Positions 2 to 32,357 of a stretch of DNA of 32,486 bases are shown piece after piece. Location: contig PAPR01000041.1 in the NCBI GenBank assembly GCA_002709085.1, forward strand, positions 1-32,486. Reading direction: 5' to 3'. The translations under genes were made by a program, and so were the position numbers. The notes below the pieces were generated by a model. That model saw only the letters and a program-made list of their open reading frames with translations. It searched no databases and was not told where the DNA came from. Origin of the DNA: Pseudooceanicola sp. (GTDB lineage Bacteria > Pseudomonadota > Alphaproteobacteria > Rhodobacterales > Rhodobacteraceae). Numbering within the stretch: the first letter of the stretch is position 1; the number at the start of each line of letters is the position of its first letter.

Positions 2-196
2 AAAGAAGCCTCTGAATCGCAGATCACACGTCAGCTCGAAAGTGTGCGGGCGGCGCACCGCTTACAGACTGACACGAATTTTCTTGCCCCGTTGTCAATG
101 CGAACTGAACCGCGCCGGTTCGTCATGTCCAGCCCTCATCGACATCGATACCGGAGCTTCGGCGTCACCGAATTCGTCGGCCATTCGTCGCTTTGA
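2..196 (+). CDS. possible 3' end of a gene entering from the left edge
   Basis: A reading frame open from the first bases of the window runs 64 codons to a TGA at 194-196. Its product is rich in Arg, Ser and His and matches no family I recognise. It lies upstream of, and in the same direction as, the recombination module. It may be the tail of a longer gene or simply an open frame by chance, and there is no motif to decide. Confidence 0.3.
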   Translation, partial: KEASESQITRQLESVRAAHRLQTDTNFLAPLSMRTEPRRFVMSSPHRHRYRSFGVTEFVGHSSL

Positions 197-984: not shown

Positions 985-2910
985 ATGCTCCAGAGCATGC
1001 CCACAATGTATGACATCGTAGTCCACGGCCTGAACCATGAATACCCGACCGTTCGCCAATATGCTGCCCACCTACAGCGGATGCTACGCGATCGAGGTTA
1101 CCAGGACCGCCATCTCAAAGTCATGGCCGGTGCGCTTGCGGATTACCTCGAGATAGCTCCCAAATACACCAAGACGGATGCGCGACTGAACGCCCGGATC
1201 GGCGCCTGGGGAATCAAGCCCAGCACCTACAGGCAATATCAAGGCGACGGTAGGCGCTGTATCGAGCACTACCACGGAGATCTTCAAGCCCGAGTAGCAC
1301 GCCGAGAGCTACAGGATACGTTCTCACGGCTTAGGGAAGTTCTGCCCGAACTGATCGAGGCCAACCTCGTCAAGGAGTCGCAGACCCGAGGCTTCCCCAA
1401 GCTTTGCGATCTCAGCCGCGCGCGCGGATGGGACATGATCAATCTAACCCGGGATCGCATCATTCAACTACACACAGACTGTTGGTCCTCAAAACAATGG
1501 GAGCAAGTGAAACGAGGAGCCAAGCTCCTCGACCACCTTCGTCAGTTCCCCACCTGCACCGTTATGCTGCCACCGCACAAGATCGGCTCTCTGAATGGTG
1601 TTTTTCGGAAAAACAACGACATCCCCTGCTTCCTGACAGATGAAACTGCACAGTGGGTTCAAAACGCGACGACCGTATATGACGAGACCGCGATCACGGC
1701 CGAGGCCAAGGAAGCTACGGCCAAACCGCAATCGGACGGCAGCGTCGGCATCTACCGGGCTGCATTTCACACCTATATTCGAACGGCAGGCGAGTTCTGC
1801 AACCTTAAAATAACGAATGGCCTGCCAGCATTGTTCGATATTGAGATCATCGAAAAGGTTCTTGTAGCGCTTTGCGACCGCTCCAAGTTGCCAAACGGTT
1901 TGGCACCCAGAACTCTGCATGAATACGCTGACAAGTTGAGACTGACCCTGCAACGACAAGACTATGTTGAAGAGGCCGACAAGATCAGCAGTCTGATGTC
2001 TCGGCTCCCGGCCCTGATTGAGGGTGAGAACGCAAGTGAACTGATGTCAACACGGACTGAGGCCTGGTGTCGTGCACTGCTTGGCGACCCGGTTAAAACT
2101 GAGATCTTCGAGACGCAACACCTCCAATACGCGGCAAGAGCAAACGCAGCTTTAGAAATCGCCGACATCGAAGGTATTAATCTGGAGCAGTTCGCAGAGA
2201 ACCCGACTATTCTCGGCTATTCGCCCGAGGAAAAACGGATGGCGACAAAGCTCCTCCGCCAGGCCAGGATGTTCGGCGTCTGTGCTGCATTTGCTGCTCT
2301 TGAACTCGATGTCGCTCCGTTCCGAAAGTGCAATATCTTGCATGACCTGAGTTTGGATGGACACCCCCAAACCTTATTCGACTTCCGAACTGACAAAAAA
2401 GATCGCCATTTCGTCGTTCATGTGCCCACCGAGCTTCTCAAGAACGGGTTGGCTATGATTAAGCGCGGACAGCGCATGCCGGCGTTCACGGTATCGGCAA
2501 TCGGCCATAGCGCTGACGCGTTTGAAATTCTCGACTTTTACCTCACACGGATCCGTCCGCTGTTTGGCGGCGCCCGATTGTCTGGCTTTGCCTTCCCTGC
2601 TATTGAAAAAGAAGCCAAGGCCTTGGTCACACAGACATTTGATGGCTGGCTGTCTGAATGCTCGCTGTCCATCGGATTGCCACTGACAGCGCATAATTTC
2701 CGGCACGGCCTATGCTCTATTGAGGTCAACGCCGATCCCGGTTGCTTCCCCGAACTCGAAACAATCACGGGCGATACCGAGAGGGTCCTGAGAAGAAACT
2801 ACGCTTTCATTGACGCAGATAAGCGGAGTGTCGACTTCCAGGCAAAGCGCTATGCTCGGAGAGCAAATAGGTCGACATGGTCGGGTTCAGTTCGGAGGGT
2901 AACCGAATGA
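985..2910 (+). CDS. tyrosine-type site-specific recombinase, 641 aa
   Basis: Long member of the tyrosine recombinase/integrase superfamily, which cuts and rejoins DNA through a covalent phosphotyrosine. The C-terminal catalytic domain is readable: Arg447 (APFRKCN), a basic hairpin (TDKKDRH), His570-x-x-Arg573 followed by His574 (AHNFRHG), and the candidate nucleophile Tyr606 (RNYAFID). Residues about 60-100 (GIKPSTYRQY) resemble the N-terminal core-binding region. At 641 aa it is much longer than phage integrases (300-400 aa) and closer in size to TnpB-type recombinases of Tn554-like elements. Its stop overlaps the next start by ATGA (2907-2910), so the two are probably translationally coupled. 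Confidence 0.85.
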   Translation: MLQSMPTMYDIVVHGLNHEYPTVRQYAAHLQRMLRDRGYQDRHLKVMAGALADYLEIAPKYTKTDARLNARIGAWGIKPSTYRQYQGDGRRCIEHYHGDLQARVARRELQDTFSRLREVLPELIEANLVKESQTRGFPKLCDLSRARGWDMINLTRDRIIQLHTDCWSSKQWEQVKRGAKLLDHLRQFPTCTVMLPPHKIGSLNGVFRKNNDIPCFLTDETAQWVQNATTVYDETAITAEAKEATAKPQSDGSVGIYRAAFHTYIRTAGEFCNLKITNGLPALFDIEIIEKVLVALCDRSKLPNGLAPRTLHEYADKLRLTLQRQDYVEEADKISSLMSRLPALIEGENASELMSTRTEAWCRALLGDPVKTEIFETQHLQYAARANAALEIADIEGINLEQFAENPTILGYSPEEKRMATKLLRQARMFGVCAAFAALELDVAPFRKCNILHDLSLDGHPQTLFDFRTDKKDRHFVVHVPTELLKNGLAMIKRGQRMPAFTVSAIGHSADAFEILDFYLTRIRPLFGGARLSGFAFPAIEKEAKALVTQTFDGWLSECSLSIGLPLTAHNFRHGLCSIEVNADPGCFPELETITGDTERVLRRNYAFIDADKRSVDFQAKRYARRANRSTWSGSVRRVTE

Positions 2911-4418
2911 GTATTCACACCATTCTCGCAAAGCAGATCTGGCAAAGTATTTCCTTACGGCCTGGGTTTGCCAGCCTGACGGAAGCAGCGATTTCGACGA
3001 CAGACACATTCTTCGATTTCTTGCTGGAGCACGGGCTGAACAAGCCTGGGCCCAGCGATATCGCCATTTGGCTCGAAGGCAGGGATAGCGTGGTCAGACC
3101 CTTGTCGTTGGAGCTCCTTGAAGAGGCTTTCTCCGTTATCGATCCAAGTTTTCTCCGCGTTGTTGCAGATGCGCGCAGTCACCGGCGCCCCAAGCCTGCG
3201 CCGGATGAGCTGCGGGACGTGGTCGCTCCGTTTGATGATGTGCGTAGGCAACTTTATGAAGCGTCCGGCTGGGACCCTATTGCACCTCCCAGCCGCCGTC
3301 CCCCCCGTCCTCGCGAGTTCTCTATCCAACCAGATGAGCTGAAAGAGTCTTACAAAGATACACTTCGCCGCACGGCAAACGGACTGCCTGGCAGAGATGA
3401 AGACTTCAAGGTTCCTGCTCGCAGTATGACCGTGCGCATGCGAGAAAAGCTGTGCCAATATTTCTGGTCTATCGCCCGTCACGAACTCGCCCCCGAAATG
3501 TCCATCGTCGGTATCGACAAATACGTTGCCGATCTGACCAAACGGTATTCGGCCAAGCCTCACGGGCTCCGGTGGGCATCTCTCCGCGCGTCCATCGACG
3601 GTCTATACCTCCTCGCGCGCTTGCACGGCGAGAGTTGTGAGGTAGTGGCCCACTTGCGATCCTACCGAAGGGAGTTCGAAGCGCGGGAGAGAGCCCAGCG
3701 TGCGCTAAAATTTTTCAAGCTGACTCGCAGCGGCGAAACGACAGACAGCATTCTGGATCAAGCTGATCGTCTATTTGCCGGTGTAGATGCGGAACTGCGA
3801 CCAAAAAAACGACATCAAATGCGAAATGGTGCTGCCGTTCTCGCGATCTTCGCTAACGCACCGCTCCGGAATGCGTCGTCTCAGCTATGCTTCGGCATCA
3901 CGCTGTTTTGGAAAGCCAAACATTGGATCATCAGAATGAAGGTCCAGAAGACCCATGACGCCCGACCGCAGTTATTGGTTCTTCCACTCCATGCGGAATG
4001 CGGCAAGTTTATCGACGCAGTCATACTGGGCGATGCTTCACCAGTCATGCTGCCCTCTTTGCGAGACAAAGCCTTGAAGGAGAGGCGCCAACTATTTTGT
4101 CTCTATGACGGGACGCCAGCAGCTGCGCACTATATCCCGCACGTCTTTAAGCGGCTGACGGGTAACAGTTTCACCACGCTGAGGGTCATGCACTATTCCG
4201 ACGCGATCGAGCATCACGGTGTCGAAGGTATTGAACTCGCCAGGTCCGCCGCTCATCACTCGCCAGCAACCACAACGACGGACATCGTCAAGCTGCACTA
4301 CATCGCAGAGGAGGTCGGAAAACTCCATGCGGAGAGACTCAGGGCCAGACGTGGGGAACGAACGCGTGACGTGCGGGACCGTTACCGTAGCGAGTTCTCA
4401 TGGCGCGATGATGCTTGA
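2907..4418 (+). CDS. tyrosine recombinase-like protein, 503 aa, atypical active site
   Basis: Second recombinase-type protein of the module. The start at 2907 forms an ATGA overlap with the preceding gene and has GGAGGG just upstream. Catalytic-like positions in the C-terminal half are Arg321 (APLRNAS), Arg426 in TTLRVMH, and Tyr465 (KLHYIAE). The first His of the usual HxxR box is replaced by Thr423. Known families tolerate some variation here, but the change leaves open whether this subunit cleaves DNA or acts as a structural partner of the 641-aa enzyme. The three-gene layout recalls Tn554 TnpABC and the gamma-mobile-trio elements, though gene order and sizes do not match exactly. Confidence 0.78.
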   Translation: MSIHTILAKQIWQSISLRPGFASLTEAAISTTDTFFDFLLEHGLNKPGPSDIAIWLEGRDSVVRPLSLELLEEAFSVIDPSFLRVVADARSHRRPKPAPDELRDVVAPFDDVRRQLYEASGWDPIAPPSRRPPRPREFSIQPDELKESYKDTLRRTANGLPGRDEDFKVPARSMTVRMREKLCQYFWSIARHELAPEMSIVGIDKYVADLTKRYSAKPHGLRWASLRASIDGLYLLARLHGESCEVVAHLRSYRREFEARERAQRALKFFKLTRSGETTDSILDQADRLFAGVDAELRPKKRHQMRNGAAVLAIFANAPLRNASSQLCFGITLFWKAKHWIIRMKVQKTHDARPQLLVLPLHAECGKFIDAVILGDASPVMLPSLRDKALKERRQLFCLYDGTPAAAHYIPHVFKRLTGNSFTTLRVMHYSDAIEHHGVEGIELARSAAHHSPATTTTDIVKLHYIAEEVGKLHAERLRARRGERTRDVRDRYRSEFSWRDDA

Positions 4419-10510: not shown

Positions 10511-11671
10511 TCAAGGCGGTGTCTTCGAGCCACCAGCGGAAATCATCGTGCCTGGCTTGGGCTTCTTCGCCTTCGGGGGAAGCGAATATCTTATCAACCC
10601 TCGCGTTCGCATGCTAACACAGACATCCTTCACATGGGTCTCCCGCATTGGCATGCGTTCCATCACCTCCAAGGCAAGGTCATCGAAGTCTATCTCCTGC
10701 CTCTTGGAGAGCGCATCGACTATGATCTCCTCGGTGACTTCCCTGTAGCGTTTACAGCCGATGCCGCGTTCACCCTGCTCGTATTGAGCGAAGTCGGCGT
10801 CCGAGAACAGCATATCCTGACTGGTATCAGCCGCCTTCGCTTGCCGGCGTTTCTCAAATTCCTCTTTCTCTACCTTCTCGTGGATGTCTCGGAAGAGCTT
10901 CACCCCCTTGGGGTTATTTGTTCCGAGCATAAGGCGCATTTTTTCTCGATTTATCAGAGGCTTGAGGATCGAGAAATCTGGAAGAAACTTTGCCGAACCG
11001 CACTTTCGGAATGCGTCTTTGAGCAGATGAAGAACCCTCAACTCGCCCTTCATCCCCTCTGGCAGCAGTTTCACCGTCTCTTGCCAGTTTGAATCGCCAA
11101 CGAAATCGCCGAATTGGTGAGCAACCTTGGGGTTCACAGAGTGTCGACTGACTTCTTCGGTCATGAAATTGAAAAGGAACTCGCCGGTTCGGGCATTCAG
11201 AAATCGGCCAACTTCGGTGATCCGGACTACCCAGTTTGTGGGGTCAATGAAGGTGAAGGTGAAACCGTCGGGAATTCGCTGTGCAATCTCATCAAGGTTG
11301 TTCTCAAACTCGCCGTCGAACACGTGAATTTCGATAGCGGGATGCCGTTTTGCGAACTCGCGAAGGCGCTGCACTGAGCCGGGTTCCTTCTCGCAGAGGC
11401 AGAAGCGGACCTTCAGTTTCCTTCCAGGCCTCTGCTCCTCCACATACCGCCGAACCTGCTCCAAAAGTTCAACTGCAAGCCCGAAGGACGAGTCCGAGCA
11501 ACCTTCATTGTCGATAGTGTTCCACGGCCCGGCGAACCCGTCGACGTAGTTGAAGGTGGTAAAACCACCCATGAGCACCTTCACCGCGAGCGCCTCAAGA
11601 TAACGGCGCAGAAAGGTGTGCTTGATGTAGGTCTGTTCGCGGCCTTCATAGAGTTCAGACGGTAGGTTCAT
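10511..11671 (-). CDS. tcmP: three-Cys-motif partner protein TcmP
   Basis: A 386-aa TcmP-family protein. The start at 11671 overlaps the stop of DUF5131 as ATGA and gives the family N-terminus (ELYEGREQTYIKHTFLRRYL); longer frames to 11731 are unlikely. The fold looks like a Rossmann methyltransferase: FNYVDGFAGPW as motif I, FCLCEKEP as the acidic motif II strand, and FTFIDPTNW as motif IV (DPxxW). A winged-helix-like C-terminus (residues about 310-365) suggests nucleic-acid binding. Function is not established; it is nearly always paired with DUF5131, as here. A modification or defence role is a hypothesis. Confidence 0.87.
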   Translation of the reverse strand: MNLPSELYEGREQTYIKHTFLRRYLEALAVKVLMGGFTTFNYVDGFAGPWNTIDNEGCSDSSFGLAVELLEQVRRYVEEQRPGRKLKVRFCLCEKEPGSVQRLREFAKRHPAIEIHVFDGEFENNLDEIAQRIPDGFTFTFIDPTNWVVRITEVGRFLNARTGEFLFNFMTEEVSRHSVNPKVAHQFGDFVGDSNWQETVKLLPEGMKGELRVLHLLKDAFRKCGSAKFLPDFSILKPLINREKMRLMLGTNNPKGVKLFRDIHEKVEKEEFEKRRQAKAADTSQDMLFSDADFAQYEQGERGIGCKRYREVTEEIIVDALSKRQEIDFDDLALEVMERMPMRETHVKDVCVSMRTRGLIRYSLPPKAKKPKPGTMISAGGSKTPP

Positions 11672-12429
11672 GCTGCGCCGAGTTCCACCATTATCGATGA
11701 TGGAACGATCTGCCATGGGAAGCCGTTCCACTCCGCGCCTTCGAGTAGCCGACCGCCGGACTTAGGTCTCGCACCGCCCCACTGCTTGAAGAAGAACGCG
11801 ACATCGAAATGTTCGCAAGCGTGGCGCAATTCCGTCGCCCACTCAGGCTGCATCGGGCGAGCATACGGGCCACTTTCACCGCCGACGATTGCCCAAGCAA
11901 TGTTTGAAAGGTCTACCTCGCCGATCGGTCCCAACAGCGGCTCAAACGAAATAAAGCGGGCCTCTGAATTGATCTGGCGAAGATGCTCGATCCGGCTCTT
12001 GTGAGCAGCGTCCTCGACCGAGACGCCAAGCCAGATATGTGCTGGGATTGGGCCTCCTCCGTAGCGAGTGCGGACGTAGTTTCGCATGAGAGAAGAGCGC
12101 TTCGTAAGGATCTGATAGACGTGCCAGTCGGCTGCCTCCATCGCGTCGAAGACTTTATCGATGTGACTACGGTCAATGTCCTTGTGGAACAGATCGCTCA
12201 TCGAGTTCACGAATATCATGCGCGGTTTCTTCCAAAGCCCGGGCTGCGCCAGACGGGAGGGCCAGAGTCGCAGGTCGAAACCCTGTTCATATGGATGCCC
12301 CTCCACGCCGCGCCAGCGCTCGGCGAAGCGTTCCGCATAACAATTGTCGCACCCAGGACCGACCTTTGTGCACCCGGTAACAGGGTTCCAAGTAGCGTCA
12401 GTCCACTCAATCTCTGATTTTTGGGCCAT
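11668..12429 (-). CDS. DUF5131 (phage Gp37/Gp68) three-Cys-motif protein
   Basis: A 253-aa protein of the DUF5131 family, distantly like radical-SAM enzymes. The N-terminal IEWTDATWNPVTGC is diagnostic, and cysteines C20-x6-C27-x2-C30 could hold an iron-sulfur cluster. Further family boxes are MIFVNSMSDLFH, VYQILTKR, HIWLGVSVED, FISFEPLLGPI, WAIVGGESG and FFFKQWGG. The ATG at 12429 is preceded by GGAGGAAG. Translationally coupled to tcmP downstream. The reaction is unknown. The family is frequent on phages and islands. Confidence 0.9.
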   Translation of the reverse strand: MAQKSEIEWTDATWNPVTGCTKVGPGCDNCYAERFAERWRGVEGHPYEQGFDLRLWPSRLAQPGLWKKPRMIFVNSMSDLFHKDIDRSHIDKVFDAMEAADWHVYQILTKRSSLMRNYVRTRYGGGPIPAHIWLGVSVEDAAHKSRIEHLRQINSEARFISFEPLLGPIGEVDLSNIAWAIVGGESGPYARPMQPEWATELRHACEHFDVAFFFKQWGGARPKSGGRLLEGAEWNGFPWQIVPSSIMVELGAA

Positions 12430-12610
12430 GTTAGCTTCCTCCCACACTGTGGATAACTCTCGTGCACCACCAAGACAAGGATCTCGACTAAGTCTAATTC
12501 GCACGGTGGGGGCGACGACTTCGCTGACGATTCTGAGCACGGCCCCAAGTGAATTGAGTTACGAAGTAAAAATTTCATTCATGGGACCTTTGGAAAAGGC
12601 TCCTTGGGAT

Positions 12611-12732: not shown

Positions 12733-13152
12733 TCAGTCAGCCGTCAGCTTCATGGCTATGACATCGACCCGAGCGACATCGAGCGCGCGAGCAATGGCCG
12801 ATCGAAAAACCTGCAAGTTTGGTAGAACTGCTGCGATCTCCTTGGCGCAATCATCGCGGTAAATAATCTCATATCCAGGTGGTAGATCCCGCCTCGACAA
12901 TCGAGATATTTCGCCTTCATTTTCGGCACAAGACTGCCCCACAAAGGGGTCGGTTTTCAGGAACCCCATCCGGAGCCGGAAGGAGCGGTTTCGCCCTAAA
13001 AACTTGGGTTCATCTTCTTCGACAGGGAAAAACCGGATGTCCCACAGAACAGCCTCTCCCTGGGACATGACCGGCAAGGCCAGCAGACGGAGGTATCTGC
13101 AAACCAGTTCCGGAGAAGTCCCTCCCAGTCCGCAGCAAACGTGAGCGATCAC
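12733..13152 (-). CDS. hypothetical protein, 139 aa
   Basis: Not recognised. The best start is GTG at 13152; the frame stays open without ATG back to a stop at 13234-13236. The N-terminus has VCCGLGG and a further Cys, then mixed alpha/beta sequence, with QSCAENEGE midway and a helical C-terminus (FRSAIARALDVARVDVIAM). No signal peptide or membrane segment. It is co-directional with DUF5131/tcmP and divergent from the 328-aa gene, with a repeat array in its upstream region. Regulation through that array is plausible. Confidence 0.5.
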   Translation of the reverse strand: MIAHVCCGLGGTSPELVCRYLRLLALPVMSQGEAVLWDIRFFPVEEDEPKFLGRNRSFRLRMGFLKTDPFVGQSCAENEGEISRLSRRDLPPGYEIIYRDDCAKEIAAVLPNLQVFRSAIARALDVARVDVIAMKLTAD

Positions 13153-13156
13153 AATT

Positions 13157-13305
13157 TCGCGACCTTCAGCGTATATTTCGTGCGACTTGAAGCATGCGTC
13201 GTGCGGCTTCGGCCCGGCTGAACGCGACTTTAATCAGGCTTTTCGCGACTTCACGCAGACATCCTGCGACGCAAGCAAGGTTCGTTGCGACCCGTCCCTA
13301 AATAA
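13157..13305. repeat. seven-copy GCGAC array with 21-bp period (iteron-like)
   Basis: GCGAC or GCGGC cores start at 13159, 13182, 13203, 13224, 13245, 13266 and 13287: one spacing of 23 and five of exactly 21 bp. Four of the middle copies extend to GCGACTT or GCGGCTT. The bases between cores are not conserved. Even phasing at two helical turns is typical of plasmid iterons and multi-site operators. The array fills most of the gap between two divergent unknown genes and is followed by an A/T-rich stretch (13297-13333). Read on the - strand, the cores fall on the same codon positions (AAG TCG C) every seven codons. Confidence 0.7.
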
Positions 13306-13393
13306 GCAGCTGAAATAGAAGAACAAAAACCTCCCCTGAATCAAGAGAATCCCAGAATCCATAGAACCCCCGAAGGGTGGAAGTTGGTCGGTT

Positions 13394-13436
13394 TTTTTGC
13401 TTTCGGTCACAGACACCCCGATTTTTGCTTTCCACA
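13394..13436 (+). promoter_or_regulatory. direct repeats and DnaA-box-like site near the array
   Basis: TTTTTGCTTTC occurs at 13394-13404 and again at 13422-13432. CTTTCCACA (13428-13436) is one base off the DnaA-box consensus TTWTNCACA. Both lie between the 21-bp array and the 328-aa gene. They would fit an origin or a promoter region; evidence is limited to these matches. Confidence 0.35.
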
Positions 13437-13457
13437 AAAGCGGCCAATATTCGCTAC

Positions 13458-14444
13458 ATGACAGACACAGCACCACAGACGACCAGTGATGAGCACTATC
13501 AGCACTCCAGAACTCCCGCCAAAGCGCCCAGCACACGGGCGAACTCGCGAGAGCGTTCCAACCAGATGGCGGTCTCCAGAGGGACCGGCATCATGGACTG
13601 CGGAGCACTCTTCGAAGAGCTTTCCTGTTCGGAGCCCCGGAAGGCGTTGACCCGGGCAGGTTCCTGGTTTGCGCTGACGACGGACCTGTCTATCTTGGCG
13701 AAGATGGAAGCAACACCGTTAATGATGCTTCGATACTCTGGAACCATGCTGTGCGAACGTTTGCCAGCTGACGACATCCCGAAAGCCGCTCGAAAGATAC
13801 TTGGCGGCGAGTTTGCACGATACCGTGGATTTCGCAGACGTCTGCTCGACCTCCAGTTGCTCGCTACCCGGTCGCGGGTGGATGAAGACCCTATTCGCGG
13901 TTTGCAACGATTGGCCCGACTGGAGATTAGACCCTCTGCGGAAAATCCATTCTACGAGCTAAGGCGCGTGTTGAACGCCACACTGGAACCCTGCGAGCTC
14001 TCCAGACGCATTGCCATCGACTTGGATAAGAATCTGACCGGTCTGAACAGGCAAACTTTTCGTGCCGCGCTTGGCACATTGGATCGGCTCCACGGATCCG
14101 CTCTTGCGCAGGCCACCGGCCTCCTTCCGAAGAACATTATCGGATTTTTGCCCAAGCCATCGGATAACGCATACATAACGCCACTTCCCCAAAAACTCGC
14201 GCAGCTACATGAGACTGCGGAACCGCCCCTTCGCTCCGCGATATCAGCAGGATATCGTGTCGCTCTCGGGCTTCAGCTGTTCAATGACGACGAAGATCCC
14301 ACGCTCAAGGAATTACTCTCTGAGCGCAACATAGAAAGGCTCATGAACACCGATCCCGCATCACTCGGCATCAAAAGGCTCAAACCGGCAACTTTCCGTG
14401 CATACGTGAATCGCTTGATCAAAGCGTGTTCGAAGATGAACTGA
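13458..14444 (+). CDS. hypothetical protein, 328 aa, downstream of repeat array
   Basis: Unrecognised. The ATG at 13458 gives 328 aa; no good ribosome binding site precedes it, and ATG 13593 (after AGAGGGACC) is an alternative. The N-terminal 45 residues are polar and low-complexity. The rest is strongly helical and basic, with many Arg/Leu. The C-terminal GIKRLKPATFRAYVNRLIKA resembles the SAM-like core-binding segment seen near residue 80 of the 641-aa recombinase, but no catalytic R-HxxR-Y set follows. A DNA-binding or replication-initiator role is suggested only by the adjacent array. Confidence 0.6.
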   Translation: MTDTAPQTTSDEHYQHSRTPAKAPSTRANSRERSNQMAVSRGTGIMDCGALFEELSCSEPRKALTRAGSWFALTTDLSILAKMEATPLMMLRYSGTMLCERLPADDIPKAARKILGGEFARYRGFRRRLLDLQLLATRSRVDEDPIRGLQRLARLEIRPSAENPFYELRRVLNATLEPCELSRRIAIDLDKNLTGLNRQTFRAALGTLDRLHGSALAQATGLLPKNIIGFLPKPSDNAYITPLPQKLAQLHETAEPPLRSAISAGYRVALGLQLFNDDEDPTLKELLSERNIERLMNTDPASLGIKRLKPATFRAYVNRLIKACSKMN

Positions 14445-14620
14445 TTTTTTGGTCGAGCGTTGATGCGATGCACTCGCTGGTCAACATGCGTGATCTGACT
14501 ACGCATAATTCGACTTCCCGCTTATGGATCAAAAGGATCTTCGACAGGCCGATGTCCAAGCCTTGCTTTGCACGGACAAATGGTTACTATTGTTAGTGCG
14601 AAGTGTGGATGGAGGATCCC

Positions 14621-14878
14621 ATGACTAACCTTACTATCCGAATGGCCCCGCAGGAAAAGGACAAACTGACGGCTTGGGCTGCGGTCAAGGGAACAAGTGT
14701 CACTGACTACATCAAGCAATTGGTCGCCGCTGACATGGCAGCCGGAAGCCCTCAGGATCGCGCCGATGCCTGGTTTCATGAAAACGAAGCCGCGATTTCC
14801 AGCGAGGCGCAACATATCAGAAACGGGGGTCTTCCAGGATCGCATCTGGCGCTGAACCACCCCTGGCCCGATGCATAG
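14621..14878 (+). CDS. ribbon-helix-helix antitoxin
   Basis: An 85-aa protein with an N-terminal MetJ/Arc-type ribbon (NLTIRMAPQEKDKL) and helices (WAAVKGTSVTDYIKQLVAAD), the usual DNA-binding part of type II antitoxins. The C-terminal 40 residues would bind the toxin. GGAGG at 14611-14615 supports the start at 14621. It overlaps the downstream CcdB-like gene by 8 bases, a typical toxin-antitoxin arrangement. Not a classical CcdA by sequence. Confidence 0.8.
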   Translation: MTNLTIRMAPQEKDKLTAWAAVKGTSVTDYIKQLVAADMAAGSPQDRADAWFHENEAAISSEAQHIRNGGLPGSHLALNHPWPDA

Positions 14879-15170
14879 ATTTGACGTCCTCGAGATCGAA
14901 GGCAATCTGTATCTGGTTGTTCAGGCAGAACACTTATTGAGTCTCAACACGGTCGTTCTACTGCCGATCTTGCCGGCTAAAGCGCTCCCTGCCCTGAGTC
15001 AGCTTACCATCGATTTCCGGATCGAGGACAACCTCTATCGCATTCGAGCCCACATGCCACTTACGGTGGATGCGCACCGCTTGCGGCACCTGAAGCCGGT
15101 CCATCGCCTCTCTCCAGATGAAGGTCAAAAAGTGATGGATGGCCTTTACGCGATCCTGTGGGGGCTTTGA
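14871..15170 (+). CDS. CcdB-like toxin
   Basis: A 99-aa protein of the CcdB fold: MHRFDVLEIEGNLYLVVQAE, then the LLSLNTVVLLPILPAK beta-strand block, IDFRIEDNLYRIRAHMPL and the C-terminal GLYAILWG helix. CcdB poisons DNA gyrase; the C-terminal W-G seen here is part of the gyrase-contact end in the family. The start at 14871 lies inside the antitoxin gene, so translation is coupled. It probably stabilises the plasmid or island, in addition to hipBA. Confidence 0.8.
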   Translation: MHRFDVLEIEGNLYLVVQAEHLLSLNTVVLLPILPAKALPALSQLTIDFRIEDNLYRIRAHMPLTVDAHRLRHLKPVHRLSPDEGQKVMDGLYAILWGL

Positions 15171-27951: not shown

Positions 27952-28862
27952 ATGATCCGTCAAGTTCGCGAGTTGCTGGCACCTGTCAAATCCCTCCTCG
28001 GGGGAACTACCCTCTTCATGGCCGGCAACAGTCTGTTGGGCGTCGTTCTGCCGCTTCGGATGGAGACGGCGGATTACCCGGTGGCACTGACCGGCGCGGT
28101 AATGGCAGCCTATTACCTCGGATTGGCGCTCGGCGGACTTCGGGCGAAACGGGTGATCCTGAGGATCGGTCATATTCGCGCCTTTTCGATTTTCGCAGCG
28201 ATGACCGCGGCGGTCTGTCTCGCCTATGGCTTTTGTGGACGCCGATCGCATGGGCAGCGCTGCGCCTGGTCAACGGTTTCTGCATCGCCGGCATGACGAC
28301 CTCGATCGAAAGCTGGCTCAACGATCGCAGCACCAACAAAACGCGAGGGCGCACACTGGGCAGCTACATGCTGGTCTTCTACTTCGCCGTGGCGCTCGGA
28401 CAGACGCTGGTTAACGTCGCGCCTCCGGCCGGCAGCGAATTGCTGATGCTCGCCTCCGCGCTGATCGGGCTGTCTCTCGTGCCGATCGCGCTCACTCGCC
28501 TCGGCGAACCCGAGCTGGCCGAGTTGCGTCCGCTCGGTCTCGGACTGCTTTTCGAAGCCTCGCGCGTCGGCGTGGTAGGAGCGGGAGTTGCTGGAATACT
28601 CGTCGGGTCCTTTTACGCGCTCGGCGTAGTCTTCGCGCGCCAGATCGGGCTGAACGTGACGGAGACGGCGCTATTCATGAGCACTGTCGTGCTGGGTGGG
28701 CTCGGTGCGCAGGTTCCCGTCGGGATGCTCGCCGACAGGTTCGACAGGCGCATCGTGATGGCTTGCATATTGCTCGCGGTCGGCCTGTCGTGGGGCCTAT
28801 TGGCGACCTCGGTCGCCAACGGCGTCTCGCTCGGTCCTCTCTTCGTGATGGCACTTGCCTTT
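27952..28862 (+). pseudogene. MFS transporter, frameshifted and 3'-truncated
   Basis: YcaD-like MFS permease. The first frame (MIRQVRELLAPVKSLLGGTT to AVCLAYGF) breaks at a TTTT run (28231-28234); adding one T restores WTPIAWAALRLVNGFCIAGM, then STNKTRGRTLGSYMLV and GMLADRFDRRIVM (the MFS loop motif). Homology stops at FVMALAFG near 28862, where the 3' end of a DUF488 gene in the opposite direction begins. About the last 100-130 residues are missing. The homopolymer shift could be sequence error; the truncation is not. Confidence 0.82.
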
Positions 28863-29202
28863 GGCCAAGATCCTCAAGTTCGGCCAGCGCGTGCTGAAAG
28901 TCTTCACCCAAGGCGTAGTCGGCGTAGTTGTGAAAACTCCGCACGCGCCAGAAAGCGTTCAGGTTGTCATCAACACCGGGCTGCTTCGGACGGCGGCCCC
29001 CGAGCGCCAGCATGTGCCGGTAGTCGATCTGGTATTCGGCCAGCCGTTGCGGAAAACTGTCGTCGTTGAAGTCCGGGTTGCTGCGGGATTTCGGGAACGA
29101 CCGCACATCGACCAGCAGCGGGACCCCGGCCTGGCGCAGCATGTCGATGACCGTCTCCGGCGGCCGGTTTGAATGTCCGATCGTCGCGAAACCGCCGCTC
29201 AT
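28863..29202 (-). pseudogene. DUF488 protein, 3'-truncated
   Basis: N-terminal two thirds of a DUF488 protein: ATIGHSNRPPETVIDMLRQA, LLVDVRSFPKSRSNPDFN, YRHMLALGGRR and FHNYADYALGEDFQHALAEL. The conserved C-terminal box (normally MCAE...WRCHR) is absent because the sequence runs into the 3' end of the MFS gene near 28862; the frame continues to 28675 as nonsense antisense to MFS. The ATG at 29202 overlaps the DUF2945 stop by ATGA. Confidence 0.82.
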
Positions 29203-29411
29203 GAATCAAGCTTGGTTAACGCGTCCTCCTTGTGCGCCGCGATATGATCGGTCTTGTCACTCTCGATCTCGTATTGCGGCTCATCCTTCGACGCGCGCCG
29301 GCGATGGCCCTTGTAGTCGAAATCCGCCTCGTGAACTTTCACAACGCGGCCCCTGACGCGGCCGGCTTCGGAATTCCAGCTCACATGATCTCCCGTGGAA
29401 AACTTCGCCAT
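29199..29411 (-). CDS. DUF2945 (TUDOR-like) small protein
   Basis: A 70-aa protein of the DUF2945/hypervirulence-associated TUDOR family: FSTGDHVSWNSEAGRVRGRV, then VKVHEADFDYKGHRRRASKD and PQYEIESDKTDHIAAHK. A small beta-barrel is expected; function is not established. AGGAGGTG lies just before the ATG. It is the first gene of an operon with DUF488, with which it commonly pairs. Confidence 0.9.
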   Translation of the reverse strand: MAKFSTGDHVSWNSEAGRVRGRVVKVHEADFDYKGHRRRASKDEPQYEIESDKTDHIAAHKEDALTKLDS

Positions 29412-29479
29412 GATACACCTCCTTCGTCACGTGAAACGCAGAGGTCGCGTGTCGCGTTCCTGACCTTATCTCCTCTGAA

Positions 29480-29507
29480 TTGACAAACCGGTATTCGTCC
29501 TTATCTT
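29480..29507 (+). promoter_or_regulatory. sigma70-like promoter candidate
   Basis: TTGACA (29480-29485) and TATCTT (29502-29507) with a 16-bp spacer, oriented towards the Rnk-like gene at 29663. The -35 is perfect, the -10 weaker. Confidence 0.4.
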
Positions 29508-29662
29508 GACCTGATGGTCACGCACGAAAATCATTTCCGGTTTCTGCTTCTGAACCGCCTGGCTCCCCGGGCGGTCTACGCATAAGCGCGTCTTCGACCA
29601 CCCGGGGCTTTCTCACATCCTTGAATTGAGAACGCGGGCTTCGCCGCCCCGGGAGATACATC

Positions 29663-30130
29663 ATGACCATCACCAGAATGACCGCCCTGCCTGCGGGCAG
29701 CAACTTTCGCTCGCCGTTCGAGCGCTCCGCTGTCGAGACCGGTTTTCTCCTCACGATGGAGGACCGGCTCGGCATCGAGCGTCTGCTTCGCCAACGGGGA
29801 ACCGAGAATGCGCCTAATCCTCCGCTCCTGAACGGGCTTCTGCGCCACAAGCTGCGGATATCGCGCCGCGCTCCCGAGCCCGCTCCACCCGAACTCGTCG
29901 TGGCCGCTTGCCATGTAACCTATATGATCAGCGGCGAGGGTGCGCGTTCGGGCGTGCTTTCCATGTCTCCGATGCCGATCCCCGGTTGCCTTCTCGTGGC
30001 ATCCTTGCTCGGGGCGACCCTGATCGGGATGCGGAAAATGCAGAAGGCGCCGCTTCTGCGGGACGACGGTCAGATCGAGACGGTCATCGTGTTGGATGTG
30101 AGGCCGCCGCACGACCACGACGCGGCTTGA
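29663..30130 (+). CDS. divergent Rnk/GreA-C-like protein, 155 aa
   Basis: A 155-aa protein whose second half (ELVVAACHVTYMISGEGARS, SPMPIPGCLLVASLLGATLI, then GMRKMQKAPLLRDDGQIETV) follows the plan of the GreA/GreB C-terminal (Rnk-type) domain: GxxVxY, a PxxxxLLG block and a final strand. GGGAGA lies upstream of the ATG. The next gene is a clearer Rnk homologue with the same layout, so this may be a diverged tandem copy. Confidence 0.65.
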   Translation: MTITRMTALPAGSNFRSPFERSAVETGFLLTMEDRLGIERLLRQRGTENAPNPPLLNGLLRHKLRISRRAPEPAPPELVVAACHVTYMISGEGARSGVLSMSPMPIPGCLLVASLLGATLIGMRKMQKAPLLRDDGQIETVIVLDVRPPHDHDAA

Positions 30131-30212
30131 TGCCCCGATCCGCCTCCTGCGGGCCAGGGAAGTTGGCAACCCACATGCATCCCGCCACCGAAGGGCGGAA
30201 AAGGAGAATCCC

Positions 30213-30656
30213 ATGAACACGCAGCGCTCCACCTCACGCAGCACCGGGCGGCGGCCCAGAGTCGTCATCGGTGCGGACTGCCTGGACAGGCTCGAAGCCC
30301 TTGCGGAGGGCGCGCTCCAGCGGAACCCGGACCTTGCAGATCGATTGCTCGGCGAGCTCGGCCGGGCGCGCATCGTTCCGGCGGCGAAACTTCCGCCGAA
30401 CGTGGTGGCGATCGGCCGCAGGGTCACCTACCGCGACGAAACGACCGGAAAGGAAACCGCGGTAACGCCGGTCTATCCCGAGGACGCCGACATCGCGCGG
30501 GGTCGGATCTCTGTCCTGACACCGATCGGGGTCGCCCTGATCGGCCTGGCGGAGGGGGCATCGCTGCACTGGGACACCAGGGACGGAAAACGGAGGGTGC
30601 TGACCGTCCTCCACGTCGCTCCTCAGGATGCTGCCGAAGGGGTGGAAGCCGGATGA
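30213..30656 (+). CDS. rnk: nucleoside diphosphate kinase regulator-like (Rnk)
   Basis: A 147-aa protein with an N-terminal helical region (GADCLDRLEALAEGALQRNP) and a GreA/GreB-like C-terminal domain (AIGRRVTYRDETTGKETAVT, PEDADIARGRISVLTPIGVA, LIGLAEGASLHW). Rnk-type proteins bind RNA polymerase through the secondary channel and affect nucleotide metabolism. AAGGAGAA precedes the ATG. Adjacent to a divergent relative. Confidence 0.82.
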   Translation: MNTQRSTSRSTGRRPRVVIGADCLDRLEALAEGALQRNPDLADRLLGELGRARIVPAAKLPPNVVAIGRRVTYRDETTGKETAVTPVYPEDADIARGRISVLTPIGVALIGLAEGASLHWDTRDGKRRVLTVLHVAPQDAAEGVEAG

Positions 30657-30800
30657 TCTGCTGTTTGCGGGGCCTACCCGAGGCCCATGACCTGCCCGGA
30701 AGGCGCCGCAGGGTGCGCTGAAGGCGCCATGACGCTCCTTCCGGGATATCGCAAATCGCCGCGCATCGGCGCCCTTCCCTTCCCGTCGAAAGAGAGTCTC

Positions 30801-31028
30801 ATGAACCGTCACCTTCCGCCTGCCTGCCCGTCCTGCAAGGCATCGCTTCCCCGCGCAGCCGCTCACCGATGTCCGACCTGTCGACACCCGCTCGGCGGCA
30901 TTTCCCTTCTCATCCGGATGTCCTGCCGTCGTTGCGGCGCGGCAATCGAGAAACGCGCCGGCGCCGCCGCGACCTGTCTAAGGTGCCGGTCTCTGCGTCC
31001 CTCCCGGCTCCGGCCGCAGGACAGCTGA
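30801..31028 (+). CDS. small four-CxxC zinc-ribbon protein
   Basis: A 75-aa protein with CxxC pairs at residues 9-12, 24-27, 42-45 and 59-62, enough for two zinc ribbons, and an Arg-rich tail. No family recognised. GAAAGAGAG precedes the ATG at 30801. It could be a zinc-binding nucleic-acid or adaptor protein; its place in a metal/stress block is noted. Same direction as the Rnk genes. Confidence 0.6.
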   Translation: MNRHLPPACPSCKASLPRAAAHRCPTCRHPLGGISLLIRMSCRRCGAAIEKRAGAAATCLRCRSLRPSRLRPQDS

Positions 31029-31394
31029 GAAAGAACTTGTTCTCGTCTTTGGTAGCCGGTCTGACCTTCGACCCTCATTCTTGTCGCTGTTGGCTTGATA
31101 ATCACTTGAACAGAATGGCGGATACAATCGGAGTGACATCCAGGCTGGCCGACGGCCTTGCCCCAACTTGAATGGGACGTCGGCTGTTCGGTCTTTTCGC
31201 AAATCGTAGAAGGCATCGCATGCGTCCTTACGGGTTGGACATGCCCGTTTGAAACCAATATATGCCGATTGCATGGCAGCGCGCGATGGCGTCGTGTTTT
31301 CGCTGCCGGAACTCCGCTATTCGCAACTGAATTCCTGAACGCCCGGATTTGCTCTCGCACCTCTTGTGCGGGGTTTGAAGTGAGGAGGTCTATC
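31029..31394. other. intergenic, nothing clear
   Basis: No supported gene in 366 bases. Upstream region of the DMT transporter, which starts after GAGGAGGT at 31382-31389. No terminator with a T-run seen. Confidence 0.4.
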
Positions 31395-32357
31395 ATGACA
31401 TTTACCTTGCCCGATACGTTCCGATCCTTGCGGACGGGGTCTGCCGCGGGAATGGCCTGCATGGCCGCGGCGATGGTTCTCTTGCCATTGGGCGACACGT
31501 TGTCGAAGCTGCTGACGGAGACACTGAACCCGATCGAGGTCGCGACTATGCGCGTTCTCGCCCAAGCGGCCTTCCTCCTGCCGGCGGCGGTGGTGCTGCG
31601 TAGCCGCCTGAGGGGCGCGATGTTTTCTCCGATCGTGGCGCTTTCCGGGCTTTTGGTAATGATCACGCTCATCTGCTTGATCGGTGCCTTCGCGGTCATG
31701 CCGATTGCCACCGCGATCGCCATTTTTTTCGTGGAACCGTTGATCCTGACGGTGCTGGCAGGCCCCCTCCTCGGTGAGACTGTCGGACCGCGACGCCTCG
31801 CCGCCGTCGGGGTCGGTCTCGTAGGCGCGTTGATCGTGATCCGCCCAGGCACCAAATTCGAGGTCGCCGCGCTCCTGCCGCTTGTCGCGGCCGCCGCCTA
31901 TGCGCTCAACATGATCGCCCTGCGCCGCGCCTCGCGCTCGCGGTCGGGGCTTACGGTGCAGTGCGGTGCCACGATCTATGCCTGCATCGGCATGGTGGCA
32001 CTTAGCATTGGCCTTCAAAGCGCGGGTCATGTCGCGTTGGACATTGGCGCACTGTCTGCCTCCGGTTGGGCTCTGATCCTGGGAAGCGGATTCTTCGCCG
32101 CCGCGAGCTACGTCCTGATCGCCGAAGCCTTCCGTCACGCCGAAGCGGGTCTGCTGGCGCCGTTCCAATATCTCGAGATCATCGGGGCCACCGCCGCCGG
32201 CTATCTGGTCTTCGGCAGTTTTCCGGATGGGATGACCTGGATCGGCATCGCAGTCATTCTCGCGTCGGGCCTTTACGTCGTCTACCGTGAGCAATCGCGC
32301 GCGACGACGTCTCTGGAACCGACGGCCCACAGAAGCCGCAGAATTCGGCCGCGGTAA
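31395..32357 (+). CDS. EamA/DMT-family transporter
   Basis: A 320-aa inner-membrane drug/metabolite transporter with about ten helices in two EamA repeats (first repeat from MACMAAAMVLLPLGDTLSKL to VGALIVIRPG; second from LPLVAAAAYALNMIALRRAS to GIAVILASGLYVVYRE). The start at 31395 follows a strong GAGGAGGT; the frame extends upstream to 31158 without support. The PxxxxxxFFVEPLI segment is typical of the rarD/RhaT-like group. Substrate unknown. C-terminus is Arg-rich. Confidence 0.88.
   Translation: MTFTLPDTFRSLRTGSAAGMACMAAAMVLLPLGDTLSKLLTETLNPIEVATMRVLAQAAFLLPAAVVLRSRLRGAMFSPIVALSGLLVMITLICLIGAFAVMPIATAIAIFFVEPLILTVLAGPLLGETVGPRRLAAVGVGLVGALIVIRPGTKFEVAALLPLVAAAAYALNMIALRRASRSRSGLTVQCGATIYACIGMVALSIGLQSAGHVALDIGALSASGWALILGSGFFAAASYVLIAEAFRHAEAGLLAPFQYLEIIGATAAGYLVFGSFPDGMTWIGIAVILASGLYVVYREQSRATTSLEPTAHRSRRIRPR

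Follow-up and report, generated by a model that had tools for sequence, protein, structure and literature searches.

Apart from Rep_3-type plasmid origins, which are compared below, the described systems closest to the locus reported here are SGI1 and two groups of cargo islands, GInts and SEs. According to the passages of PMC7433901 on its replication, SGI1 replicates from an iteron oriV beside rep, with 17-bp iterons directly downstream of that gene, a putative DnaA box, and control by a helper plasmid. GInts (ginABCD) and SEs (intA-tfp-intB-srap) are described in sections of PMC5385486 and PMC10214605 as carrying two recombinases, a recombinase-fold protein lacking the catalytic set, and a small accessory gene. 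The relevant passages propose that SEs move by a copy-out route (PMC10214605) and suggest replicative excision for some GInts (PMC5385486), and these same passages name no origin; neither paper uses the word "iteron" in its main text, and the one occurrence of "oriV" there refers to a cloning vector. The section of Idola et al. on this point reports no ginC-ginD blocks in Alphaproteobacteria, and the corresponding section of Bardaji et al. mentions alphaproteobacterial homologues from a permissive search.

Here we describe an iteron array from Pseudooceanicola sp. that lies in what is best read as an iteron-type origin that GInt-like islands carry and that has no rep gene next to it. The window, meaning the whole 32,486-nucleotide stretch that was analysed, is the entire contig PAPR01000041.1 of a genome that is 77 percent complete. 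Among the titles and abstract openings listed by searches of the open-access literature, none dealt with such a cassette.

Seven iterons occupy positions 13157 to 13307 (forward strand), with a unit of about 21 bp and a first spacing of 23 bp. A sequence-only reading of this DNA had reported seven phased GCGAC repeats, and reading the letters directly bore this out: cores of the GCGAC type begin at 13159, 13182, 13203, 13224, 13245, 13266 and 13287, giving spacings of 23, 21, 21, 21, 21 and 21 bp. Six of these cores are exact GCGAC and the one at 13203 is GCGGC. Each unit contains two half-sites, GCGWC(C) and a TCCGRA-like sequence, and the family consensus for the unit is T-GCGWC-C-n4-TCCGRA-n3-T. 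A period of 21 scored best, with a five-column agreement of 29/30 (six units, fixed period). Among 1000 dinucleotide-preserving shuffles of 12733-13457, in which any period from 15 to 30 was permitted, the mean score was 21.2, the maximum was 25, and none equalled the array; the runner-up period across the whole window scored 24. The flanking genes were also as that reading gave them, a 139-aa gene at 12733-13152 (reverse strand) and a 328-aa gene at 13458-14444 (forward strand), but the array does not occupy the whole space between them, as had been claimed: it takes up no more than the first half of the 305-bp gap. The 139-aa protein had no Pfam matches and no plasmid relatives at the limits used. 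At 10511-12540 (reverse strand), a 406-aa protein and an adjacent DUF5131 protein give matches to PDC-M30A/PDC-M30B, a candidate defence pair of PADLOC.

The second half of the gap completes a recurrent layout, hereafter the cassette: five to seven iterons of 21 bp, 47-49 bp containing a TAAG..TGA-like motif, and then purine-rich 9-mers (CTGAATCAAGAGAATC). In the window the conserved mid-motif, TAAGCAGCTGAAAT, lies between the iterons and the 9-mer block at 13303-13316 (forward strand; from the cassette alignment). The purine-rich 9-mer direct repeats, CTGAATCAAGAGAATCCCAGAATCCATAGAA, at 13336-13366 (forward strand), 49 bp from the last core, form a putative DNA unwinding element; this block was absent from the earlier description, and we judge it the more telling neighbour of the array. 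A small GC inverted repeat, CCCCCGAAGGG, follows at 13367-13377, and a GC-rich inverted repeat of some kind occurs near the same place in many cassettes, both seen by eye and without statistics. The DnaA box consensus is TTATCCACA. The near DnaA box noted previously does exist, at 13428-13436, but its two mismatches put it at about chance level, as roughly two such sites are expected per 800 bp by arithmetic. The window offers nothing better than this two-mismatch site, and no box with one mismatch or fewer was found near the nine other cassettes examined. The 9-mer block holds three to four GAATC in the window and in several relatives; a cluster of CcrM (GANTC) methylation sites was nevertheless rejected as a common feature because the blocks of L076 and L110 carry AGAAC/AGAAA instead.

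The beginning of the window encodes a recombination module. A sequence at 66-140 (forward strand), shared with the related L020 element, lies upstream of its first gene and may belong to the island's left end region. All module genes are on the forward strand. The first encodes a 226-aa protein (cl3, 209-889), the second a 641-aa tyrosine recombinase (cl2, 985-2910; profile match to XerD 5dcf, E = 5.8e-6) with invariant R447, K486, H570, R573 and Y606, which we read as the catalytic set, and the third a 513-aa protein (cl1, 2877-4418), by position a putative recombinase partner, whose profile gave no significant sequence match in the PDB. The 328-aa protein (cl0) is shorter than most of its relatives (about 300-794 aa); these were found in 14/292 genomes, the window's own included, and mostly adjoin relatives of cl3, cl2 and cl1. 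Remote-homology comparison of this protein had been proposed. The cl0-family profile matched cl2 residues 129-316, a stretch that precedes its catalytic domain (E = 9e-10 in this single comparison, hhalign probability 96.5), and cl0 thus resembles the N-terminal, non-catalytic half of cl2. The same profile matched neither cl1 nor the Rep_3 profile, and Pfam gave nothing above cut-off for the 328-aa protein. Its AlphaFold model was helical, with a confidence no better than fair (mean pLDDT 73), and Foldseek against the PDB returned nothing significant for this model or for a 697-aa model that is unreliable beyond about residue 390. A protein scan of genome contigs with the 328-aa protein confirmed 0/69 stretches.

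Together, the neighbours of the cl0 genes and the match to cl2 place the 328-aa gene, as judged from gene content and profiles, in a recombination module resembling those of GInts and SEs. The module was likened to the GInt/SE set by description. GInts have two catalytic recombinases; here cl2 carries the catalytic set and cl1 is without a significant structural match. The place of the GinC-like protein might be taken by cl0 through its resemblance to the cl2 N-terminus. GInts have ginABCD in that order at their 5' end, att sites in direct repeat and a short AT-rich 3' end. The gene order here differs from that of GInts and SEs, and it also varies between the islands themselves. Precise att sites were not found, and flank searches for a clean empty site returned none. 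Directly after the 328-aa gene, at 14603-15170 (forward strand), lies a ParD-like and CcdB-like pair of the toxin-antitoxin type, with Pfam scores just under cut-off. L020 (2752-11307) and L021, from two genera, have in common an 8.6-kb segment that is 89.7 percent identical and set in different flanks, and the cl0 gene of L021 contains an in-frame stop. On their right flanks, the L020 and L022 elements both abut the 3' end of an NnrS gene that has an azurin-like gene beyond it; the NnrS 3' end may be a preferred insertion site.

The array recurs in other islands. Arrays of 21 bp adjoin the same module in L020, L021, L022, L024, L025 and L026, and accompany far more distant modules in L076, L110, L119/L402, L018/L401 and L172/L399. 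Twelve cassettes could be aligned, cut in register by hand so that the window's last units stand with the 11 others, and in the alignment the GCG.C of the cores never varies and a CTGAA-like block follows. The core-to-block distance was 47-49 bp in 12/12, although for L119 and L018 the search itself imposed a distance of 44-52 bp, which it did not for the other ten. The order of array then block was constant while the orientation relative to cl0 flipped, with the window, L020, L021 and L022 facing one way and L024, L025 and L026 the opposite way. In L024 and L401 a cassette with an 8-kb flank, the flank being 92 percent identical between the two, is joined to two different recombination modules, and the modules switch where the array has its outer edge (L024:8520). 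The cassettes of L020 and L021 lie inside the shared segment, with kilobases of it on either side. The far end of the window, 28855-32355, is about 82 percent identical to the cassette flank in L402 (genome G017) and is likewise related to the flanking DNA of L024, L398 and L401; cargo or a chromosomal neighbourhood common to them could account for the likeness.

We used a sequence model trained on the 12 cassettes (R1) to look for the same array in other genomes, a check that the sequence-only reading had suggested. Strong matches (E <= 1.1e-12) occurred in 14/394 family genomes and weak ones (E 1e-5 to 0.01) in nine further genomes. A cl2 relative was present in 13 of the 14 strong-cassette genomes versus 38/394 overall (Fisher p = 1e-13), a count that is partly circular as seven of the 14 (G000, G006, G149, G113, G155, G068 and G118) had been found beside cl0 or cl2 and used to train R1; without these seven, cl2 was present in 6/7 versus 25/380 (p = 1e-6). 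The cl2 match and the cassette lay on one contig in 9/14 strong-cassette genomes. For G392 and G406 the cassette is on a separate contig, with a cl0 gene next to it, and in G356 the cassette is flanked by another gene pair, one member of which matches Phage_integrase (Pfam) just under cut-off (E = 1.7e-5). No recombinase was recognised near the cassette in G395 and G380 within the stretches examined. Conversely, R1 had no match within the stretches examined at L023, L027, L028, L074, L075, L077, L100-L109 and L111-L118, so many modules are without a cassette nearby within those stretches; at L002 its sole match was the weak one to the Thioclava p5 origin described below (E = 0.028).

A strict block pattern (at most two mismatches) was found in 3/394 genomes, all at these islands. 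Five GCGWC spaced by 21 bp, with no further constraint, made an unspecific pattern, with at least 120 matches in the genome scan and at least 120 in the viral scan; none of the loci among the listed bare-pattern matches passed the block test. By eye, L172 (Phaeobacter) was judged to be a cassette and L196 was not. When plasmids were searched with five cassettes, the only cassettes recovered were those of Limimaricola, all other matches being weak or at chance level; two Limimaricola plasmids bear a cassette together with a recombinase.

The suggestion that the array might be an iteron origin was supported by comparison with Rep_3 plasmid origins, with which it has in common iterons, a spacing of 45-49 bp and the 9-mer block. 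R1 weakly matched the origin of Thioclava plasmid p5 (NZ_CP149930; E = 0.028), beside a Rep_3 gene whose product is Rep3_N/Rep3_C. We read seven Rep_3 loci and found 21- or 22-bp arrays in six of them; R1 matched one of the six loci added to Thioclava p5, that of Acuticoccus p4 (E = 9.6e-4), and gave nothing in five of the seven. Like the cassette, the alphaproteobacterial origins of Thioclava p5, Paracoccus sanguinis pPspOM44, Acuticoccus p4 and Pukyongiella p4 have 21-bp iterons and, 45-48 bp past the last half-site, a CTGAATC/AGAATC-like 9-mer block, and three of the four have a (T/C)AAG....TG-like mid-motif at about the cassette's place. The cassette block scored best at offset 45-48 in 4/4 of these origins (offsets 43-51 tried), which were those with an anchorable 21-bp array and enough downstream sequence. 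Shuffles reached the block score in 3, 31, 6 and 34 of 2000 (combined p = 2e-6), for a likeness that in some of these origins had been spotted by eye before testing.

The cassette also departs from these origins. They lie next to a Rep_3 gene and to the TTATCCACA box, which is present in five Rep_3 loci, whereas at the cassettes examined neither an adjoining Rep_3 gene nor a box with one mismatch or fewer was found. The iterons themselves read TGTGAGG..TTCGGGG in the Rep_3 origins and GCGWCC..TCCGRA in the cassette, and a different cognate initiator is therefore to be expected. Rep_3 was present somewhere in the genome in 9/17 genomes, and 5/10 of their Rep_3 loci show what appear to be their own 22-bp iterons of other sequences. 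Action of Rep_3 in trans on the cassette was rejected, as the repeats beside Rep_3 genes of the same genome differ where seen.

One contig, G155:C13 (57,338 bp), bears both a Rep_3 origin and a cassette with its module, and is probably a circular plasmid, since its ends overlap by 299 bp. At least three 22-bp repeats lie beside its own Rep_3 gene, and the Rep_3 origin has an AAGAATC block similar by eye to that of the cassette. The detrended GC-skew minimum falls at 53.2 kb, with the Rep_3 iterons at 54.4 kb and the cassette at 2.9 kb; without detrending, the minimum (about position 26) falls between the two. We dropped the cassette as the replicating origin of this plasmid because of the 22-bp Rep_3 repeats and the detrended minimum nearer to them.

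As far as comparison of sequences can tell, even very divergent islands conserve the iterons, spacing, mid-motif and 9-mer block, in a layout that matches Rep_3 origins. On balance, we think the array is probably the iteron half of a Rep_3-like origin that recurs in tyrosine-recombinase genomic islands of this alphaproteobacterial family. An initiator would bind the iterons and the 9-mer block would then open; the excised circle, or an island residing in a plasmid, might next replicate as SGI1 does. With no recognisable Rep gene adjacent, the initiator could be the recombinase-like 328-aa family or another factor. SGI1 uses another recombinase system than the islands here. As they would, it combines an iteron origin with a genomic island excising by its own integrase, as the passages on SGI1 excision and replication describe (PMC7433901).

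Co-occurrence makes the 328-aa family a weak candidate for this initiator. At E < 1e-30, a cut-off picked after seeing the matches, cl0 relatives were found in 11/14 cassette genomes versus 4/25 cl2-positive genomes without a strong cassette (p = 3e-4). Without the seven biased genomes the comparison became 4/7 versus 4/25 at the same cut-off (p = 0.047) and 4/7 versus 8/25 at the search tool's default E <= 0.001 (p = 0.38), where four of those eight were weak (E 1.8e-6 to 2.8e-5) and lay at or beside recombinase matches. At the sensitivity used, cl0 was not found in three cassette genomes and the two Limimaricola plasmids; cl0 profiles found none in 86 of the 97 kb of one of these plasmids, and tblastn with cl0 over the plasmid collection matched only Thioclava. 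Phased repeats upstream of homologues of the 328-aa gene, a test that followed from the earlier reading, were present in several cases, but none were found within the stretches examined at L002, L023, L027, L028, L077, L102 and L105. A specific version, in which the family is a new initiator type derived from a tyrosine recombinase's DNA-binding half and fires a Rep_3-like iteron origin on excised GInt-like circles, is improbable in our estimate, the more so as the supporting co-occurrence declines without the genomes found via cl0; if true, one protein lineage would serve recombination and replication.

The strongest rival to the origin reading is a recombination enhancer, in which the array provides accessory (arm-type or enhancer) sites and the helical domains common to cl0 and the cl2 N-terminus bind the 21-bp units one after another to organise excision or integration. 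The resemblance of cl0 to the N-terminal part of cl2 and its predicted helical fold would both fit, as would the co-occurrence of cl0 with the cassette (11/14 versus 4/25 at E < 1e-30, a biased count) and the switch of modules at the array's outer edge beside the 92 percent identical flank. However, a 9-mer block at a fixed distance and the likeness to Rep_3 origins are unexpected of arm sites, the cassettes of L020 and L021 sit kilobases from the ends of their shared segment, and some cassettes have no cl0 that we could find. We regard this explanation as rather unlikely.

Iterons are known to cause incompatibility, and the cassette might be a decoy that destabilises an incoming plasmid, its integrated iterons titrating that plasmid's Rep or pairing with it. 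The lack of a rep gene beside the cassette would suit such a role, and SGI1 replication is described, in the passages on its helper, as destabilising the helper plasmid (PMC7433901). A decoy has no need of a 9-mer block, however, and the apparent Rep_3 arrays in cassette genomes (5/10 loci) are 22-bp repeats of other sequence, leaving this role very doubtful. An operator controlling cl0 or the module promoters, the other possibility raised by the sequence-only reading, is just as poorly placed and was rejected as a general role because orientation and distance to cl0 vary: the array is just upstream of cl0 in the window, L020, L021 and L022, but it is inverted relative to cl0 in L024, L025 and L026, lies about 0.9 kb upstream of it in L398 and downstream of it in L399, has no cl0 found with it in L076, and a putative cl0 promoter motif (GACCAATATTC..ATGA, by eye) is present whatever the cassette's orientation.

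Returning to the reading as an iteron-type origin, a plasmid-like origin signature travelling with these little-studied islands suggests that they may copy themselves as circles. The conserved origin-like cassette in related islands is a candidate source for replication of the kind proposed for SEs and some GInts, and it is usable as a diagnostic mark for finding these islands. Through its iterons, moreover, an island may compete with plasmids.
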